From: Tetraselmis striata | Lineage: Eukaryota; Chlorophyta; Chlorodendrophyceae; Chlorodendrales; Chlorodendraceae | Length of the DNA: 64,000 bases | Direction: 5' to 3' | Assembly: GCA_006384855.1 (NCBI GenBank) | Contig: VCJN01000322.1 | Coordinates: 124,001 to 188,000 of the forward strand | Part shown: positions 7,906 through 58,269 of the stretch, in pieces | How positions within the stretch are numbered: position 1 is the first letter of the stretch | Layout: each line of letters opens with the position of its first letter | Position numbers and translations under genes: made by a program | Notes under the pieces: model-generated | What the model saw: the letters and a program-made list of their open reading frames with translations, nothing else | Database searches by the model: none | Told to the model about the DNA's origin: nothing

Positions 7906-10266
7906 CAATACAGCATCCCACAAAAGTCACTGCATTTTTATGGGTGTGATTTGGGTTTGGTCGCTTCTGGTCGGTAAACCCATGCATAGTCTACGCCATT
8001 GCAGCCATTGCGAGGATAACCATGAAAGAGCGTGCACATGGTGTGCTAGGGCCAATGCGACGGCGCGCGCGGCGCGCGCCCTTCTGTTATGCGGCACAAC
8101 CAGTGTAACAAGTGCTGCACGGCCGGGCTGTGAACGGTTTGAGCGCACGGCACATTTGGACATAAAGAACCGTTTTTCCTCCCATGGTCGCCGAGATACA
8201 TGTGTTGGCCACCTACCCCATGCCGCGCGGCGCATGGTTTGGAGTACATGGTCAGCTAGCGGGCTGCATGCGACATTCGAAATTTGGCTGCTCGCCCTGC
8301 AAGAAGCAAAAATATTGCAATCACTTTTTCATTCATAGCATTTCGAAGTTTTATCAGATCGAGTTGATGTAAATTGCCGCGACGAAAAGCCCGTGGCTTG
8401 GGCTTTCTAACGCACTAACTTACAGCCAGTCTGATAAAACGTTGAAATGTTATGGCCTGTCAAAGTTACCCCCCTGTTCTGGTAGCCCAGCCAGCCCATT
8501 CACTGTGAGTGGGGGCGCATGATGGGGGCATGTAATGTGCCCTTCCACGCAAGCTCCCAGGCGCGAGGATCCCTTGGATAAGTCTCCACGTCGCGCGGGC
8601 CCCGTCATCATTTTGGCTTTTCCCCTTGGATGATGGGCGACATGTGTTAAAACATACGCGCAGACCTGTGCAGCAGTTGCGACATTGTTGTCGAGGGGGC
8701 CAGCCCGCGCTTAACCTACGGTGCGGGCGGTATAAGCATGCACCTATGGAATCGAAGTCACTTATGTGTGCTACTTTCACCCAGCGAGGCGCGGGCAGCG
8801 GCGCTTATCTTGCAGCTTGGAAAATTGTAGGATGACTGCCCCCATCACGACGGCGGCATTACTGGCACACTCTCATGGAAATGCCATACATTGCATCGGT
8901 AGCGTGCATGGATTGGGCTCAAGCTCGGTCGTCTTACAGCGCATGCACAAGTCCACCCACCACCGGTAGAGCGCGGGCATATATGCGACGGATGGTAGCT
9001 ACGCCGCCAACAATTTGCCCCCTATTCATCGCCAGATTTTTTGTGGTTTTAGCCATGTGCCAAATAATGCCATTGCCAAGGAACACTTCTAAAAGTGTGA
9101 TAACCGGGAGAAACGGCTGCCTCCTTGGCGTAGGAGGCTTGCATACACTGGATAAAAAGGCTCCATGGCCCCGTGCCCCCATGGCTTGGGCACCAAGGCC
9201 GCGATACGCGCGGATTTCTACGTGCAAAGACTTTTGTGGGCTGCTGTACAACGACACTTATACCCGATCATTTATGACTATGAATCATTCATATAATTAG
9301 TGGATATCATGATAGTGACTATAATAATATTATCATAGCCAACGAGCGCCCTATCGCATTCATGGACCGTTATCCGGATATATGCACTGATGAGCATGGT
9401 CTCCTTCTGCATTAATGCATACACGTATTGGGGCCGCGTATTGGTATGCGCAGGGTGTAACATGAGAGGATGAGCTCACTGCTGCTGCGCACAGGTATAG
9501 CGCTATGCAATGTGTGTCGGTAGTGTCAAATTGACTAATACTCTTGAAGCAAAGCAAGTGGCAGGGCGGCACAACTGTGTTACCTTTGCAGCATACACAG
9601 CTAACCTACACAAAAGGTGTTGGCGGCCGAACCGCAGAGGTGGACAAACATGGGCGTTACATGGAGGTGCAGATTCGATCATCGTGATGGCAACAATGCA
9701 GCACGTACTAACCGAACCGAAGCTGCGGACAGTGCAGGCACTGGCAACTTAAACTAGCAGGCTTAACCATATGGCGGTGTTCAGGAAGGCAATGTAAACA
9801 GTGGGAGCCTCTAGTACCAGCTGGTGCGCTCAAGGTGGTGTGTCAACTCCTCTGGCATCGGATGAGGCAGCAGTGTCTTCCGGAGGGGAGTCGTCGCGGC
9901 GGATATGGTAGGCACGAGCCTGAAGTCACGTGTTGGGTCGGTCGGGCCATAGCAGGGAGCATGTCTCGGCTTCTTGGGGCGTACTGATAGATCCTTCTCC
10001 CCCACACAGAGTAGAATTCTTGAAGGTAGCAGGACGGTCGGCAGGTGCAAGCGGAATTGGGATGTGTATAATGTGCTTGAAACGCAGGAATACACCCCAT
10101 TGGGAGCGCCAATAGAGCCGCATGTCATGCTTGCCTGTGGATGTAGAGGCTGCATAGTGTTTCAGCTGGGCGGCTATGCGAGGTCCAATGAGAGCGGGAT
10201 GTCAGCGTCCGCCCTCCTCCCTCTCCCCGCCACTTGGCTGGAGGAGGTGGGGAGTGTAGTCAGCCG

Positions 10267-40455: not shown

Positions 40456-41430
40456 ATTTAGACGGAACGAGTTGGCGATGCCCAATCGTTGCGAAAACGA
40501 AGCGAAAACAGTACTTAGGCTGTCCGGATCTTTATGGGCCGCTGGCCGCATTTCCGGAACAATAACAAACAGCCAAATAGCGGGGTGGTTCATTGGTTTC
40601 GGAGCAGCAGGATTTCTGCTGCATGCACCGCGCCGCCTTTGCAGCGTTCACATCGTACTTGCGCTGTTCGAACGCGGCGAAAATGAACTGAAATCAACAT
40701 TCAGGCTGTCCGGAATTTTCCGGATTGATGTCAAAATATCCGGATATATATTACAAACAGCCAAGTAACGGGCTGTTTTCCTGGTTTCGGAGCCGCAGGA
40801 TTTCTGATGCATGCACCGCGCCGCCGCCGCAGCGTTCGGAGCGAGCTTTCGCTGCCTAGCCAGTGCAAAACGAAGCAAAACGATGCTAAAGCTGTCCGGA
40901 TCCTTTCGGATCGACGGCAGCATTTCCGGACTTACATAACAAACAGCCAAATAACCGGCTGTTTTACTTCTTTCGGAGCAGCATGATTTCTGCTAGATAC
41001 ACCGCGCCGCCGCCGCAGCGTTCGGAGCGAGCTTTCGCTGCCTAGCCGGTCCGAAAACGAAGCAAAACAATGCTGAACCTGTCCGGATCCTTTCGGATCG
41101 ACGGCAGCATTTCCGGACTTATATAACAAACAGCCAAATAACCGGCTGTTTTACTTCTTTCGGAGCAGCATGATTTCTGCTAAATGCACCGCGCCGCCGC
41201 CGCAGCGTTCGGAGCGAGCTTTCGCTGCCTGGCCAGTGCATAGCGAAGCAAAACAATGCTTAGGCTGTCCGGATCCTTTCGGATCGATGGCAGCATTTCC
41301 GGAGTTATATAGCAAACACCCAAGGAACGGGCTGTTTCACTGGTTTTGGAGCCGCAGGATTTCTGCTGCGCCGCGCCGCACCGCGCTGCGCCGCAACGTT
41401 CGGAGCGTGCTGGCGTTGCTCACTGATTTT
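40456..41430. repeat. ~187-bp satellite, five units
   Basis: Unit anchors (GCAGCGTTC or variant) are at 40641, 40829, 41015, 41202 and 41393, spaced 188, 186, 187 and 191 bases. Each unit contains GGAGCGAGCTTTCGCTGCCT, GCTGTCCGGATCCTTTCGGA, AGCATTTCCGGACTTATATA and CAAACAGCCAAATAACC. The middle units are most alike and the outer ones decayed. No conserved protein is encoded. Confidence 0.9.
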
Positions 41431-42770
41431 TTTGCTTGGATGAAAGCATGACAGGGTTGATTCGCTTATTCAACCTGTGCCGTTGCAAACAAGGTCGATA
41501 GCACAGGCATAGCTTGTCCACAAATTAGACTTGTATTGACTTGCACAGAAATCTTTGCATATTGATTGACCTAGATTGTTTCGGAGACCACTGTTTTTCC
41601 TTATAAATGGAAGTACGACGGGATTTGTTCATTAACCGGTGTACAACGGGGATGGATTCATGGAACGAACTCCCTCGGCACGAGGAAAGACTTGTACACC
41701 ACGCATTATGGCTGGAATGATGACTAGGTCGTACATACGAGATAGGTTGGTATGAATTCATATTGACTTGTGGTCCGCAACGAACTAACACGACAATCGA
41801 TTTAGTTTAGTCGTTTCAATTTTGTCGGATCTAAATATGGTTTCGGAGGGATGCAGAATAGGAGTAAAGGTTTGGGGCGGAACGCTGAATCCTCGTTTTG
41901 AAGGGGTCAAGTCCCTTAACACCATAACCATGCATGTTACGAACAACTTGACAATTTCTGTGAATCATCGCTGTCGTATCTGAATTGTTATTAGTAGTAG
42001 CCAGCGCAGAACGAATCTGGCAGCTGGCAGCAGCAAGCCATCATTACGCATCATCGTCGCTGTCATTTCCTTTACCCATGCGGAAAAAGATGCTGAAAAT
42101 ACTGGCTGTTGTGAGGAACAGACCCGGCTGCCCCCCTAGTTTCTAACAAGCGCACCGCGTTTCTAGACAGTCCTGGAGGCAGCCCCATGCCTGCTGGCAG
42201 TTTGGTCCCCTCACGGATCCAACTACCAATTACTAATCATTGTAACTACTACTCATTGTAACTATATCTGTTTCTTGGTCTTGAGCTTCTGCTGCCTCAT
42301 CCTTCATCTCTGCAGAAAACCGGTGTGGCCCTGGCCCACAGGCCACCACCAAAACATTCCGTTTGGGTGTGCTCAGTGTGTTTTGCAGGACAATCATTTT
42401 CAATGAATGAAGCAAGCACATGGCTCACATGCAGGTAATCCTCGCGTGGATTAGAAGCAGACGCACATCGCGCACATGGTGTTTGTGTGTGCCTGTGCAA
42501 GTGCGCCTATAGGGGGAGAGTGAGAGAGAGAGGAGGGAGGGAGAGAGGGAGGGAGCAGATGCCTTTGTGTTGCTGCCTGGGCTACATGGTATCAGCCTGG
42601 CACGTCGTATCCTGCCGGCTCTGCTGCTGAGGCTGCTACATGTACCAGCTGGTGCTAGGCATGCGACAACCTCGGAATGACACAACCAGCTGCTGGTTCA
42701 GTGGCAATGGGATGGAAAGCAATGAGGCGTGGAATTAATAACCACCAGATTGTCACACTCTGCAGAGCTA
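41431..42770. other. Intergenic, nothing recognised
   Basis: No conserved ORF, RNA or clear repeat other than a GA-rich stretch near 42518-42555. The right end is the 3' flank of the deiodinase-like gene. Confidence 0.5.
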
Positions 42771-42819
42771 CTCAGGTGCGCAGCCGCCAAACGCCTTGGC
42801 TTTCAGCTGGCACAGTCAT
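42771..42819 (-). promoter_or_regulatory. Candidate SECIS element
   Basis: In the 3' UTR, 50 bases after the TAA of the deiodinase-like gene. On the minus strand it begins ATGA (42819-42816). Twelve bases later comes AAA (42803-42801), and the 3' arm ends TGAG (42774-42771). The arms pair as GTGC/GCAC, then AGCTG with CGGCT, with one small internal loop. A GCC-AA-GGC mini-hairpin sits in the apical loop, as in type II SECIS elements. The quartet (ATGA/TGA), the apical A's and their spacing follow the eukaryotic SECIS consensus. Found by eye, not by a covariance search. Confidence 0.55.
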
Positions 42820-42869
42820 GTCTTTGCTCTGCAGAGCGGCGAGCAACTGCCTTAATGGCAGCCGCCCGC

Positions 42870-44644
42870 TTATCCTGTCCCAATGGAGTGTTGCGGTACA
42901 AGCGCCGCCAGCGCCGCCTCAGCTTCTTCCGCCAGAAGATCCACACCGCCAGCGGCGTCAGCGCGCTGCAGGTGCACCAGCAACCCATCCTGGATGATGA
43001 AGAGGCGCTCGGGCCAGGCGGCGTAGGCATCCCGCACGACGTTGGCCATGCTGTCCACGACCACCGGCACCGCCCCAGCCAGCCCCTCTGCCTCTACCAT
43101 GGCGGTCGCCGCCGCGCAGCGCTCCTCTGCGATCGCATTGGCAGCACCCAAACAGCGCGTCAGCAGGTGAAGAGATCGCTGCAAGGCCGTCTTCATCCCA
43201 GCCACAGGCCCGCGCGGCAGATGTGCTGCGCCCTTGGAACCTTTGTCATCGCCTGACCACACCGTGCTGGGTTTGAGAGCCATGTATGGCAAATGCCGAG
43301 ACCTGCTGCGCTGCTGGCGTTGGGCCCATCCCAGCGGTGTCACCTTCCCGCCTTGGCGCCACTTGCAAGGATAATTATAGTTCCATTTTCAAAGACGCCC
43401 TTCGCAACAAATGAAACGCCACCGCACAGCCCCACCACCTATAAGCAATCGACTGGAGCGAGCCTGCTGCCTCCCCCAATGTGCAGCACACTGCCATCAC
43501 ATGCCGGCCAGCACAACCCAGCTGTTGCTTCCAAATTATGACAGTATTTTCGCAGTACGGACAGGTCATAGACACAGCCTGCGCACTGTCGTATACACAG
43601 CTCTCTTAGGTTACCATCCTCCTGAATGGCCATTTCATTATCTTTGAGAAATAGTTTGGTATCTGCTCGCAATTGGTAAGCAACCCACAATTAGGGTTAT
43701 CAATATATGCAAAATTATTTATCAGATAAAGTGACAGTTCCGATAAATCAGCCGTCCAAAAACACACAGCATCCCGGTGCACAAGCAGTGGCCGCCGTTC
43801 GCGGGGCTGCAGGCAGGGGGCTTTGATATCGTGCGCGCATGCGCGGGCGCATGTTTGTGTGTGTGTGTGGTTGTGTGTGTGGGTTTGTAGGGGGAAAGGG
43901 GGGGCGCACCAAGGCTCCGGTGCTGCCTCCGCGTGGTCACAACACTGCCAAGTCTCCAACCGTCAGTGGCGTGCGCCTCGGAGATGTACACCAGCAGGAA
44001 GTCCGCCACGGCCGACCACCGCAACACCAGCCGGGCGACGCCAGACATGGAGAAGCGGAACGGGGGTCAGCTGTAGCTGCCTGCGGCCACTACCAGTGGC
44101 CGGCCTGGGCGGCAGCGGTCCAACAGCCTGCCGGCAGGCGCTCCGTCGCGGTAATGCGCCAGTGGGGCGTTGGGGGCCACATCGCCCGCGCGCAGCCGTA
44201 TCGGCGCTCGAATGTTGGTGCGGGAGAGGTACACCACGCTCTGCGCCACCTCTTCGTCGCCCACGTAGAAGTCGCGCACGCGCCAGTAGGCTGCCAGGCT
44301 GGCGTCGCAGGTGCAGAAGCCGGCGCGCTCCAGCACGCCGCGCTGCAGCTGACGCTCGAGCGCCTCGGGCGCCGGGAGGTGCTGGGAGTGGTAGACATCG
44401 TACGCAGCCTGAGTTTCAGCGCTGTCGCGGGCTGTTTGCTCCGCTCGCAGCAACGCAAGAACGGCGGCGCGCGGGGTGATGGCTGGGTCAAACGGCGCCG
44501 CTGAGTGGGGATATCACAGCAGCCGCTGCAGGGCGGCCTGGCCCTCGCCGTCTGGCGCCGCCAGGAAGGGCGGCGACAGCGCCAATGCCACAAGCGTGCC
44601 TTGTGTGTCCATCCGCACCTCCGCCACCACGGGAATGGGGCCAC
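42870..44644 (-). CDS. Iodothyronine-deiodinase-like protein, probable selenoprotein (5' end unresolved)
   Basis: Thioredoxin-fold selenoenzyme family that reductively removes iodine from thyronines in animals; the substrate in an alga is unknown. The main exon runs to 43910, and a last exon (43126-42870) joins in phase (RSL|EER). Family motifs in order: APNAPL, RPLVVAAGSYS-TGA-PPFR (animal enzymes have GSCT-Sec-PPF), WSAVADFLLVYISEAH, DGW, QHRSLEER, VVVDSMANVVRDAYAAWPER and LFIIQDG. The TGA at 44069-44067 falls exactly on the catalytic selenocysteine, and the frame continues as conserved protein on both sides. Upstream the frame is open to 44644 but has a second in-frame TGA (44516-44514). 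No Met codon lies between the two TGAs. The N-terminus therefore needs either dual recoding from the ATG at 44612 or an intron, for example GTGATA...GACAG (about 96 bases), which keeps phase. A SECIS-like hairpin follows the stop. Confidence 0.82.
44067..44069 (-). other. In-frame TGA, probable selenocysteine codon
   Basis: Located between GSYS and PPF, the position of the catalytic selenocysteine in iodothyronine deiodinases. Conserved coding sequence continues for about 50 residues after it before the next splice donor. Confidence 0.8.
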
Positions 44645-45718: not shown

Positions 45719-48700
45719 TCATGTGGGCGGCTCGAGAGGGATGACCTCACCATGACTGCTCTCAGGGATAGCTGGATAAAGGTTGACGTGGCCCTGCCGA
45801 ACGCCATCCAGTGTGAGGACTGCGCGGCGGCCGCCACCGGCGATCCCGACCCCAACCACGCTGCCCTGGGTGGCAGCCGGTGGCGAGATGGCGGCCTCCC
45901 CGCAGCCCCGTGCCAGCGACCTGATGCTGAGGGTGCCATCACCACTGGAGTACTCCACCAGCGAGGTGGCGTTGGGGCCGCAGCTGCGGAAGCCCAGTTG
46001 GACGGTAGCGCCCCTTGGCAGACACAGGATCTTGACTTCAAAGTAGGCGCCCTCGCAGCCCACGTCGAACGGCCTGTTGGATGTGGCGCTCACGCTGCGC
46101 GGCCTGGCCACACAGCAAGCGGACAATGCGAGCAGGAAGAGGCAGCGGGCTCAGCATGGCTATGTGTGCTTTCCGTCCGCACATGCAAACCAGAAACCAG
46201 GCGCACGTAGGCGCTAGCGCAACTGCAACCTGCCTTATGCGACGCCAAAGTCACAGATGCAAATGTTGAAGTTTGGCTGAAGCCAGCTTATCAGCGTCAT
46301 GGATACAGACGATGAGCATGCACACATAGCGAACGCGTTTCAGATACCAGATAAATCCGATGTGTGTGTCAATTGCACGGTCCCACGCCCTGCCGCTACG
46401 CATGATGGCAAGTATCGATATCGTTTGGATCGGTGAGGGAGATCGAAATTTGTAGCCCGGGCAATATAGTGCCACGCAATGCTGCTGTTGATGTGTCAGC
46501 CCGGGGTGGGGTAGGGGGGGGAGAGGGGGGGGGGGGGGGGGGGGGGGACAGCTCATCACCATGCAAACATTGAGATGGCCAATAAAAAGGCGGCGCGCAC
46601 CTGCTGGCCACACACTCCACTACGTTGGCAAAGATTTCGAGTTCGCTTGGGCTGGAGGTGACCATTCGTAGCTGCCCCCCGCCACTGCCTGGCAATGGTC
46701 CGGTAGCATGGAGGTCCTCGGAGCCATCTCCGTTAGGCGACTCAGGTTTGAGGCTGCTCTCTAAATCGCTGCTCCCACTTTCCCAAGGCTTATTGTGGTG
46801 ATGAGAGGCAGCGGTAGGCTGACCGGGGTGGTTGTGGTCACCCAGACGAAGCGCATCCAGCGCCTCCCTAGGTGCCCGAGGGCGCTCAATGCAACGGAAC
46901 AAGTCCCTTGCCCACACCTGCCCCGCAGACTGGGAATGGCATCGCTGGCAGAGGTCAAAGTCGCGGCGGTCGCGTGACTGGAAGCGCGGCCCGATGATGG
47001 GGTCCATGTCGCAGTTGTCACAGGCAATGCCATGGTGAACGGCCAGCGCACTTCCAGAACCTGGGCAATCGTTGGGCCTGGGCTCCTCCGGGCTGCTGCT
47101 CGCCACATCCATCCTGGTCGCCCAGGGTCCATTGATGTCCGCTCTGTTCAGGAAAACCTGTGGGCTGCTACTCGGCACATCCATCCTGCAAACTGGGCTT
47201 GAGTCTAGCGACCATCTTTGGGCTTCTTCCAGGAAATCCTCCGGGCTGCTGCTCGCCACACTCATCCTGGTCGCCCAGGGTCCATTGATGTCCGCTCTGT
47301 TCAGGAAAACCTGTGGGCTGCTGCTCGGCACATCCATCCTGCAAACCGGGCTTGAGGCTAGCGACCATATTTTGGCTTCTTCCAAGAAATCCTGTGGGCT
47401 GCTGCTTGCCACACTCATCCTGGTCGCCCAGGGTCGATGGAGGTCTGGGTTACCCAGGGAATTCCATGGCCGCCTGGCTGGAACATCCAGAAGCTTGCGC
47501 CTCTGCTCGTGCTGCAGCAGCTCATAGCACACGTTGCAGGGGCAGCCGTTGGAAGGACCACAGCGGCCATCACAGCCTCCGCACCTGTGCGGCAGGGGGG
47601 GTATGTTGCATGAGTTAACATGTGACAAAGTCTTGGCATGAATCCAATTGGGCTACCCAACGTCGTCGTATCACTAGCAGCCTGGGATCGGACAATAAAG
47701 TACGACCTTAGACTCCGACCTTGCTGTATTGCAGTGCAGAAATGTGCCAAATGTGTGAGATGGCGAACATCAGAAAACGCTGGCCACAGCTAGCTTTCGC
47801 CTTCGAAGTTGTCTTTCTCAGTGTCATGCAATTCAAGAACACCAGAAATATCAGGTCGATGATGTGCGCCCCCCACCCCCCCTGCCCCTGGGTCTGTAAA
47901 TACATAGTAATGGTAAGTAGCTAGATATATCGTAATTACTGGTTTACGGCACCTAAAGATTTACTCGATTAAATCGACCCCCTCCCTGGCTGGCCTCCCT
48001 GGCGCGCTGCGCGCGGAGCACGGGGTGTCTCCGTGCTCTAAAACTCTCGTACGGGTGCTTGCAGTACTGTAGATACAACTTGCTGCACACCGCGGGGAGG
48101 CGGCGCGGTGCGTGTTACTAACGCTACTGTCGCTGCCGGCGGCGGCATCGCGGCGGCGGCTATTTCAGCGGCGGGAGGGTACCCGTAGCTAGTGGGGTCC
48201 AGCCACAGGCCCACAGCACAGCGCCCTAATCCCTCGCGATAACGACCCGCGCTGGGTAGATGGAGTAGTGCCCGTGTCGATGCAATACCGTGATAATATT
48301 CGAATCATTCACGAAACGGGCTATTCCCTCCCACGCGATGAATGTAATATTGCGCGGTCGCGCGGTCGTCGAGCCCATGCGACTGCGGCGCTGATGAGCG
48401 CGCAGCGCACTCGGATACCTCGCCAACTACCTATCCTGGAAGCACTTCCGCCACCCGCCGGTGAGCCGGAGAGCGAGTTGCGAGCTGCGGCGATCGTCAG
48501 TTTGATTGTCACATCCACACGATCAGTGGCAGTTCGAAGCTGATACCAGGCAGTCCGAAATGACTGCATATCTATTAACCCTTTTTCCGGGGGTTATGGG
48601 GGAGGGAAGCGGCAACCAAGGTGGTTTTGACGCCGATCTGCTGCCGATCACAGCGCTTTGCCGGCGCAACTGGGGGGGCGTGCTCGCGGCGGTAGTCATA

Positions 48701-55615: not shown

Positions 55616-56130
55616 CTACACGTTCTGACGCATGTAGAGAGAAGCGGGGTTGCTAGAGTCGGGGCCGCGGCGGGACACACCATCATTGCTTCGACGCGGT
55701 CGGCGGCTTCGTGGGCTTCTTGGGGTCGGGCTTGAGCTTGGGGTCGGGTTTGTTGGGGGTGACCTTGACGAACGCTGCTCCGGCTGCGGCCTTGGCGCTC
55801 GCCATGAGAGATACCTCGAGCGTCTTGTCGACGAGGGCTCGCTAGCTGTAGCGCGTCGTAGTTGGAGGAGGCGACTGGGGCTTGGGCTTGAGGAAGCGGT
55901 CGTAGGCGAAGTTCGCGAAGACTCGGTCCGTTTCCGACGTCTCCCCTCCGCCCTTGGTGTGTCGGATGCAAGATACCCGGACACGGGAGGCCTCTTCGAT
56001 CGCACCGTGGGTGGGACGGCACTCACGTATGTAAGATTGCGAGCGCAGCAGAGGCACTACGAGTCTACCGCCACGGTGCTCATCATCCCTGAGTGTATCG
56101 ACGCATCCTACAAGAAAGCTCATTAACCAC
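55616..56130 (-). pseudogene. Gag C-terminal fragment of DIRS-like element
   Basis: Contains VFANFAYDRFLKPKPQSPPP, followed in another frame by a Lys/Pro-rich tail (KPDPKLKPDPKKPTKPP). This low-complexity basic tail upstream of the reverse transcriptase fits a gag C-terminus. Identification rests mainly on position. Confidence 0.4.
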
Positions 56131-56399
56131 ACCTACACGCATAAACTGTGCGAGCTTCCCGCGGACCTCGCCAAATTCTGGTCCCCAGACCAACACATCA
56201 CACCCAAACCGCCCCGAACAACGACCTCGGCACCAAATGGCCGGCGGGAGTGTACTAGGTGGCTTCCGCCCCCTACCTCGCAAATGTCAACGCAACAGAA
56301 GCTTCAACCAAGGTTGCCCTCAAGGTCTTTTACCCCGGCCGCACGCCGCACGCCACACGCCGCACTTCCGCCTAACACCACCTAACGACCAATAGTAGG

Positions 56400-57850
56400 C
56401 TCCGACACAGCAAGAGCCGCAAGAACATGCCCACGTCTTTCCATACCCGCCGCACTAAAACTCCGCCCACTGACGACACCAATCCCGTCCATACAACCCT
56501 TGGAACGCTGGGACGACGCGAAACGCTTTCATACACCGACGGCTCCCGTATCCACCGCGGCGGAGTGGTGGGAATCGGCGCCGGGGTCTACACGCCGGGC
56601 AATAAACCCATCGCACTGGGAGCAAACGAACACGGAGTTCGCCGCACCATCACCAAAGCCGAACTGGCCGCCATATCGGTGGCACTCGAGTCTGACCTCC
56701 CGAAAGACATCCTCTCATATAGCGCCGTCTCCCTTCACCTAATAGAACGCATGATGTACCGGCCGGTCACCTTACGACGTCACGCTCACAAAGTACTACT
56801 CGAAAACACAGAACGCCAACTCCGACACCGAGCGGATTTGGGACTCCGAACCATCCTTTAGAAAGTCAAAGCCCATATTGGGGTCGAAGGCACATAACAA
56901 GCCGACACCGCCGCCGGCGAAGTAGCCAATCGAACATACCACCTGGCACTATCGTAACCGTAGGCGCAACTCCCGAAATAGCCGATGACGTGTGGCTGAA
57001 CCCATGCCAAGGCGCGCCGACCACCACTCACACACCCCACAAAAGTGAAAGCCGTCTGGAAACACGCCAACGCTACAGTAGGCTGCGACGCCTCCGACGA
57101 AACCCTACACTCCCACCTCATAGACCATGCGTTGGCCACATTTGTAATGCCGGAATTCGTCACCCCCGCGGACATTACCACCTCGGAAGGAATCCACAGC
57201 CTGAATTCATTTGGGGAACAAACTCAAGCCGAATGAGACGCAAGGGCAAGCCGTCCTTCACACGCGGGAAGTGCGTCCATATGGCAGGCAACTGCCCCTC
57301 CATGGCCGGCCTTAAGACATACCGACATAATGGCATGCTTAAACTCCTCCTCAACGAGCTGGAAGTCACGAATTGCGGTCGCTAGCACGTACTGTCCACG
57401 GACGCGGGCAACAAACCTGTGGTTCACTTATCCTCCCCCAACAGAGACACCTTGATCTCCGACCTAGCCGACAAAATCACACAAACCCACTCCCGTGCAT
57501 CAACATCCCCGGTGCCCAGCGGACGCGCAAGAAAGGGCAATTACATGTCCCTGCGCCGCCCCAGCTCCCACCCTGCTCCCCACGACCGTGCTAACCCCCC
57601 CCCCCCCCCCCTTCAGCCCTAGACACTGCAAAGCCGGACGCGGTTCGCATTGTCGGATTCGACTGGGACCCGGCCACCGAAACCATATCTCCTGATCCCA
57701 TAGCAGTCCAAAAAATACAGATGATAAAATTCAAATACTGCACCGATCTCAATCATGCCACCGTACACTCTCTCATCCGCAAAAAATACCAACACATGGT
57801 GAGCGCCCAACGTCGACAAGGCTAGCAATGCCCGATTGAAATCACCCCGT
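56400..57850 (+). pseudogene. LINE-type RNase H and 3' coding debris
   Basis: An RNase H domain is visible at about 56517-56860: SYTDGSRIHRGG, GIGAGVYTPG, TITKAELAAISVALESD, then a LIRxx-like segment. It continues as KVKAHIGVEG before a stop. Further pieces (AVWKHANATVGCD, LTDAGN-like and LADKITQTHSR) follow in changing frames to about 57850. The D-G-S and KAELAAI motifs identify RNase H of an algal LINE. No reverse transcriptase is present, so this is a 5'-truncated, decayed copy. Confidence 0.65.
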
Positions 57851-58269
57851 CACCCTCAGCCGCAGCGGCGCCATACACAAACTCACACTAGAAGCCATCC
57901 ATAGCCTCACGGTCCTCCGCCCCAAGAAGCAACCCTCGGGCAAACCCGCCCTCCGCCTCGCGGTGCCGCTGCAATCCGCCTCTGTAGGAAACTCCAAAGA
58001 CACTCAATCGGATGGCTACATACTCTCTTCCGCATATGCCGACAGTCCCTCAAACTTGCCATGTCCAACCCCAGTACCCTCCCACAAACCCCGTACGCAC
58101 ACGCACCGTTAACATACGCGCTTCCGCAGACCACCGTACACGACACCCCCGCCACGGCAGGGCCGGGGGGGGGGGGGGGCAATACCAAGCTGCATTGAAG
58201 GAGGAGGGGCGCTTGGAAAAAAGAGGAAGACCGGAAGCTGCATCCGTACTCCCTAGGGTTCCCACAACG

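Follow-up and report, generated by a model that had tools for sequence, protein, structure and literature searches.

Animal deiodinases remove iodine from thyroid hormone. The active site of the type II enzyme (Dio2) has been described as a proton relay of Ser127, Thr129, Tyr157, Glu160, His162, and His182 with a carboxylate site at Glu225-Arg226 (PMC11592359). In DIO1, Cys124, which is located two residues before the selenocysteine (Sec), bonds to Sec/Cys, and this bond is reduced by glutathione; Cys194, by contrast, could not be assigned a role (PMC9141512). Bacterial and Dictyostelium members of the family were reported in 2005, 2007, and 2008 (PMC1088965, PMC2375036, PMC2398784), and DIO is one of 42 algal selenoprotein families, with Sec in 80 per cent of its members (PMC7539508). 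In a review, the release of iodide from storage molecules has been proposed as the first job of DIO (PMC9571367).

Deiodinase-like selenoproteins of algae, Dictyostelium, and bacteria are already known; the additions made here are a member from the green alga Tetraselmis striata, a corrected gene model, an N-terminal helical domain, and the absence of the Cys partners discussed for the animal enzymes. With the algal DIO proteins of PMC7539508, the T. striata protein shares its family, its Sec, and its origin in a eukaryotic alga. The available main text of that paper mentions neither Tetraselmis nor Chlorodendr-, and its sections 5 and 11 describe no N-terminal helical domain in algal DIO. In the available main text of a paper on Archaeplastida (PMC6627142), Tetraselmis does not occur and deiodinase appears only in the title of a reference, and among the matches listed for papers mentioning both Tetraselmis and selenoprotein, no title concerns Tetraselmis selenoproteins.

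The window (the whole 64,000-nucleotide stretch of T. striata DNA that was analyzed) contains, on its minus strand, a deiodinase-family gene of at least two exons (Table 1). Judging from its sequence, this gene very probably encodes a thioredoxin-fold selenoprotein in which Sec is decoded via a 3' SECIS and likely carries out reductive chemistry. The minus-strand frame at the Sec site reads ...PGRPLVVAAGSYS-TGA-PPFRFSMSGVARLVLRWSAVADFLLVYISEAHATDGW..., with GSYS-TGA-PPF at 44081–44058, as the first-pass annotation had recognized; this sequence agrees with the family pattern GSxx-[U/C]-PPF, in which Sec or Cys occupies the central position. Across the splice, the joined product reads ...RRQHRSL/EERCAAATAM.... 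The first resolved exon resembles the proteins P0014, P0015, and P0001 up to Sec, and its donor is consistent with P0002. The span originally given to the gene, 42771 to 44644, holds at its lower end, where 42771 corresponds to the final base of the SECIS-like element's 3' TGAG, but extends too far upstream, as conserved coding begins near the putative acceptor at 44501/44500. The conservation claimed for both sides of the TGA is present, and its upstream part consists of deiodinase-domain sequence plus an N-terminal domain that matches no Pfam family.

Table 1. Features of the deiodinase-family gene of T. striata (positions within the window).
Feature	Position	Strand	Remark
First resolved exon: N-terminal helical domain and first half of the deiodinase domain, Sec codon included	43910..44500	-	In the 281-aa joined protein, PF00837 begins at residue 97
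Inferred splice acceptor, ...CCCCACTCAG/CGG	44501/44500	-	
N-terminal helical domain, approximately 90 residues	44220..44500	-	
Putative Sec codon, in-frame TGA in GSYS-U-PPF	44067..44069	-	
GT-AG intron, 783 bases, phase 1	43127..43909	-	Predicted; junction matches TSEL_004011.t1
Last coding exon, carrying the remaining half of the deiodinase domain	42870..43126	-	TAA at 42872-42870
SECIS-like element, type II	42758..42837	-	
Second in-frame TGA, 5' of the inferred acceptor	44514..44516	-	Read as intron or 5' leader, not Sec

The 281-residue joined protein matches the T4_deiodinase family (PF00837) with an E-value of 1.6e-38 (132.8 bits; cut-off of 27). Only two PDB sequences match it at E ≤ 0.01, namely the type III deiodinase 4tr3 (E = 4.7e-28) and the type II deiodinase 9h48 (E = 1.4e-22), and in these alignments, of the kind proposed in the first-pass annotation, Dio3 and Dio2 align through the Sec site, with similarity running on past the TGA on both sides. 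The match to the NCBIfam model deiodinase_rel (80.7 bits) fell short of the cut-off (250 bits). In the T. striata genome (224,097,584 bases on 2903 contigs), PF00837 has two matches, both of them exons of this gene and the first with one internal TGA, and it has none in 14 control genomes. A search with the joined protein retrieved one relative, probably because public open reading frames terminate at the TGA. When the halves were searched separately, the second retrieved 11 proteins and the first retrieved four, counting the window's own or those of T. striata. The first-half matches are the window's own P0013 and three relatives, P0001, P0014, and P0015, which are 45, 65, and 35 per cent identical, respectively. 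In viral contigs, 13 stretches fit a pattern, and none of them encodes a relative.

We infer that the UGA at the Sec site is read as Sec through tRNA-Sec and eEFSec under the direction of a SECIS in the 3' UTR. The relatives P0001, P0014, and P0015 end precisely at the residue before Sec (GSYS, GSYS, and GSWS, respectively), which is what gene callers would yield if a stop codon were located there too; in all three, this stop is presumably TGA. The eight outside proteins from the second-half search all begin after the Sec site. In bacteria, where the best 80 of 545 relatives were compared, 79 have an identifiable site; 73 of 81 sites carry TGA and the other 8 carry Cys.

If the TGA were instead a true stop, the gene would be decayed or truncated, and the downstream exon would be either a remnant or a separate protein beginning with a Met after the TGA. 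The public T. striata model TSEL_004011.t1 (EukProt; 131 residues) does begin with the first Met that follows the TGA and therefore lacks the catalytic residue and everything upstream of it. The same model, found in the second-half protein search, agrees in every residue with the product predicted past the TGA, junction included, from which it follows that the downstream exon, earlier described as clean, is real. We consider a true stop very improbable. Throughout the core, the residues encoded past the TGA match those of the animal enzymes, three relatives stop at the identical residue, the GPX and SelW loci of the same genome use TGA likewise, a SECIS-like element is in place, and a protein beginning after Sec would presumably lose the first strands along with the catalytic residue. 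Under the preferred reading of the TGA as Sec, the public gene model, which is missing the catalytic half, is corrected, and a Sec deiodinase homolog is placed in a cultured green alga.

Components of the Sec machinery, which had been proposed as a check of the first-pass annotation, are present in the same genome. Specifically, the Rfam tRNA-Sec family has six matches, two of them above the cut-off (74.9 and 59.6 bits), and ARAGORN, applied to four of the six, identified the top two as SeC (anticodon tca) and the other two as tRNA-Ser. Taken alone, the Rfam family also matches all 14 control genomes (above the cut-off in 5). Domain III of eEFSec is matched in two adjacent exons (E = 1.5e-10 and 3.5e-9) and in none of the 14 controls. 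Three other loci carry TGA at a Sec site, two of them GPX and one SelW. Among 11 GPX matches, two have one internal TGA, one has TAA, and eight have no stop; the GPX-TGA loci read ASA-U-GATRSNY, and the sole SelW-type match reads CGG-U-GF with TGA at U. The sole Sep15/SelM match has no stop. The highly similar GPX-TGA loci L009 and L010 (L022 and L023) are located on different contigs, have identical SECIS-like cores, and represent either a recent duplicate or two alleles.

The hairpin proposed 50 bases past the TAA lies where it was said to be, with exactly 50 bases between the TAA and an ATGA at 42819–42816; in the mRNA, this ATGA is 467 bases away from the first base of the Sec codon. The arms of helix I are at 42837–42826 and 42768–42758, the AAA is at 42803–42801, the 3' TGAG is at 42774–42771, and a mini-stem has 5 bp. 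Twelve bases separate the quartet from the A's and 28 separate AA from GA; both distances fall within the NTGA..AA..GA spacing rule of 10–13 and 15–39 bases (PMC2375036). The Dictyostelium protein described in that paper is likewise a Sec deiodinase homolog from an organism with no known thyroid hormones and has a type II SECIS with an unpaired AAA. In its pattern, spacing, and layout, the T. striata element corresponds to a 3' UTR SECIS, and we regard it as a candidate element.

The minimum-energy fold of 111 bases around this candidate contains helix I, helix II, and the 5-bp mini-stem, leaves GAAA unpaired, and is more stable than expected (z = -2.73; none of 200 shuffles as stable). In the same fold, the final A of the ATGA is paired and the core quartet, a feature beyond the reach of the energy model, does not appear; the centroid leaves the core open. 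A 76-base cut of the element is not unusual in its stability (z = 0.48; matched or exceeded by 135 of 200 shuffles). Both GPX loci have a similarly laid-out element 3' of the match, in which AA is 14 bases from the quartet, one above the maximum of the rule.

A scan of both strands of the window and 18 loci of the same genome (241,182 bases; GPX-TGA and SelW loci excluded) gave 20 matches with a helix II score ≥ 7, and requiring in addition a helix I of ≤ -15 kcal/mol left two, the deiodinase-gene element and an ATG microsatellite. In 1,600,000 bases of Markov-1 sequence, there were 42 matches, none of which satisfied the helix I requirement. The thresholds were set after the deiodinase-gene and GPX elements had been seen, and no element of that strength turned up at the SelW locus; for these reasons, we take the scan as support and not as a formal test. 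In the first-pass annotation, the lack of a SECIS hit above threshold had been named as a result that would speak against the gene. Rfam gave no SECIS at the locus, either at the gathering cut-off or at E up to 10, and because it was equally silent on the control GPX and SelW loci, this result carries little weight.

Upstream of the first resolved exon, 142 ATG–donor combinations within 3 kb fit the phase as candidate first exons, and none could be singled out. The nearest in-frame ATG upstream is at 44612, and the in-frame TGA at 44516–44514 stands between it and the conserved frame. Since the frame beginning at 44612 stays open across both TGAs, translation could start at this ATG and insert Sec at both codons (44516 and 44069), and a two-Sec protein, MSP, has been described from Chlamydomonas, Volvox, and Ostreococcus (PMC2375036). 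We find two Sec codons highly unlikely here, given that the acceptor-like CCCCACTCAG sits between the two TGAs, that the start of P0015 and the similarity to P0001 both begin just after this putative acceptor, and that the 30-odd residues of P0001 further upstream are unlike the frame around 44516–44514.

P0001, P0014, and P0015 share conservation with the alga over the approximately 90 residues ahead of the deiodinase domain, a stretch that matches no Pfam family. A profile search with the first half found, among candidates capped at 7994, only these three proteins and the window's own. The AlphaFold2 model of the first resolved exon has helices over residues 1–90 (block pLDDT of 66–93), and the rest is poor (mean pLDDT of 55.0); Foldseek found no PDB structure similar to this model at E ≤ 0.001. 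The Tetrahymena doublet microtubule structure 8g2z was matched by the profile in one chain (E = 0.32) and by Foldseek in another (E = 9.1), which we take as chance. Unlike the animal enzymes, the algal protein has this helical domain N-terminal to the core. No membrane anchor was seen in the part from 44500 on, which lies downstream of the putative first exon. In bacterial forms, no comparable helical domain was noticed by eye over the 75 residues that precede the motif. The domain may serve as an algal marker.

With animal DIO1–3 (4tr3, 9h48), the algal protein shares the PF00837 core, Sec-PPF, YIxEAHxxDGW, the relay His, and Glu-Arg. All relay positions (Ser, Tyr, Glu, His, and His) are retained, except that Ser replaces the Thr before Sec (Thr129 of Dio2). 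In contrast to the animal enzymes, the alga has Tyr at the proximal Cys position (Cys in DIO3, Ala in DIO2) and Val at the distal one. The proximal Cys at U-2 (DIO1 and DIO3) and the distal Cys (all three animal enzymes) are thus both absent from the alga; DIO2 itself has no proximal Cys.

With the bacterial deiodinase-like selenoproteins (PMC1088965, PMC2398784, PMC13188914), the algal protein shares GSY/FT-U-PPF, an aromatic residue at U-2, and the lack of a distal Cys (79 rows, from the best 80 of 545 matches). In these 79 rows, the proximal site is Tyr in 41, Phe in 32, His in 2, and Trp, Cys, Val, or Leu in 1 each. At the position of the relay His (Dio2 His182), which the alga shares with animals, 61 rows have Pro, 16 have His, and 2 have Ala. 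None of the 79 has lost Tyr, Glu, His162, or Arg, and these four residues hence do not discriminate between the alga and bacteria. The motif tabulated for the bacterial family, UxxC (PMC13188914), is absent from the alga and from most bacterial rows, which have U-PPF instead. The algal protein thus combines an animal-type relay with a bacterial-like Sec pocket. One relative (L033, from a Fimbriimonadia bacterium) has, in tandem, more than one deiodinase-like domain with TGA at the Sec site, and the bacterial deiodinase-like frames L041, L079, and L098 are preceded by stretches that look by eye like EF-hands.

In a maximum likelihood tree of 85 rows, the alga groups with DIO2, DIO3, and three environmental fragments (support of 99/91), apart from the 79 bacterial rows, which come from the best 80 of 545 matches to the algal query; the algal branch is long (1.1). 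Measured along the tree from the alga, the nearest row is bacterial (L028; 2.18), and DIO3 is at 2.42.

By its family, the product would be a thioredoxin-fold enzyme with Sec in GSYS-U-PPF, and this Sec would most likely act reductively on a small halogenated aromatic compound or a similar electrophile. In the course of this reaction, Sec would be oxidized to a selenenyl intermediate and then reduced directly by an external thiol, which would be needed because both Cys partners discussed for the animal enzymes are absent. Reductive dehalogenation of a small haloaromatic is our first choice for the chemistry, and we would give it an even chance. A quite possible alternative, though short of even, is that this family selenoprotein is a peroxidase working through Sec, or else a general thiol oxidoreductase, and not a dehalogenase. 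Thyroid hormone is not expected in algae, which counts in favor of such a role. In addition, deiodinases carry a peroxiredoxin motif (PMC11592359), a redox role was proposed by the authors who reported bacterial relatives (PMC1088965), and Tyr or Phe at U-2 is common to the alga and 73 of the 79 bacterial rows (best 80 of 545). However, the alga groups with animal deiodinases and keeps the relay His that most bacterial rows have replaced by Pro, although the minority that keep His weakens the latter point. A chemistry other than dehalogenation or peroxidase/thiol redox seems improbable.

More tentatively, and with a rather doubtful standing at present, we hypothesize that green algae possess their own deiodinase branch of soluble Sec enzymes, working as dehalogenases of iodo- or bromo-aromatics in hosts that lack thyroid hormone, in which a lineage-specific helical domain replaces the anchor, an aromatic residue replaces the resolving Cys, and the animal relay is retained. 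If true, deiodinase chemistry would be older than its hormonal use, and the internal Cys would be dispensable. Apart from this hypothesis, the T. striata gene provides a natural enzyme in which the animal proton relay is retained and both Cys partners are missing, and a single recombinant protein could address both the job of the family before thyroid hormone and the reduction of Sec without an internal Cys.

Elsewhere in the window, a neighboring open frame of 418 aa on the minus strand (46396–47652) contains a ZZ zinc finger (PF00569; E = 6.5e-09) and, at 47084–47489, a 153-base tandem repeat. Approximately 1.4 kb downstream of the SECIS-like element, a tandem array with a 186-base unit (4.7 copies) occupies 40490–41369, and the region at 56001–58000 has a strong local strand asymmetry (GC skew of -0.257 and AT skew of 0.256).
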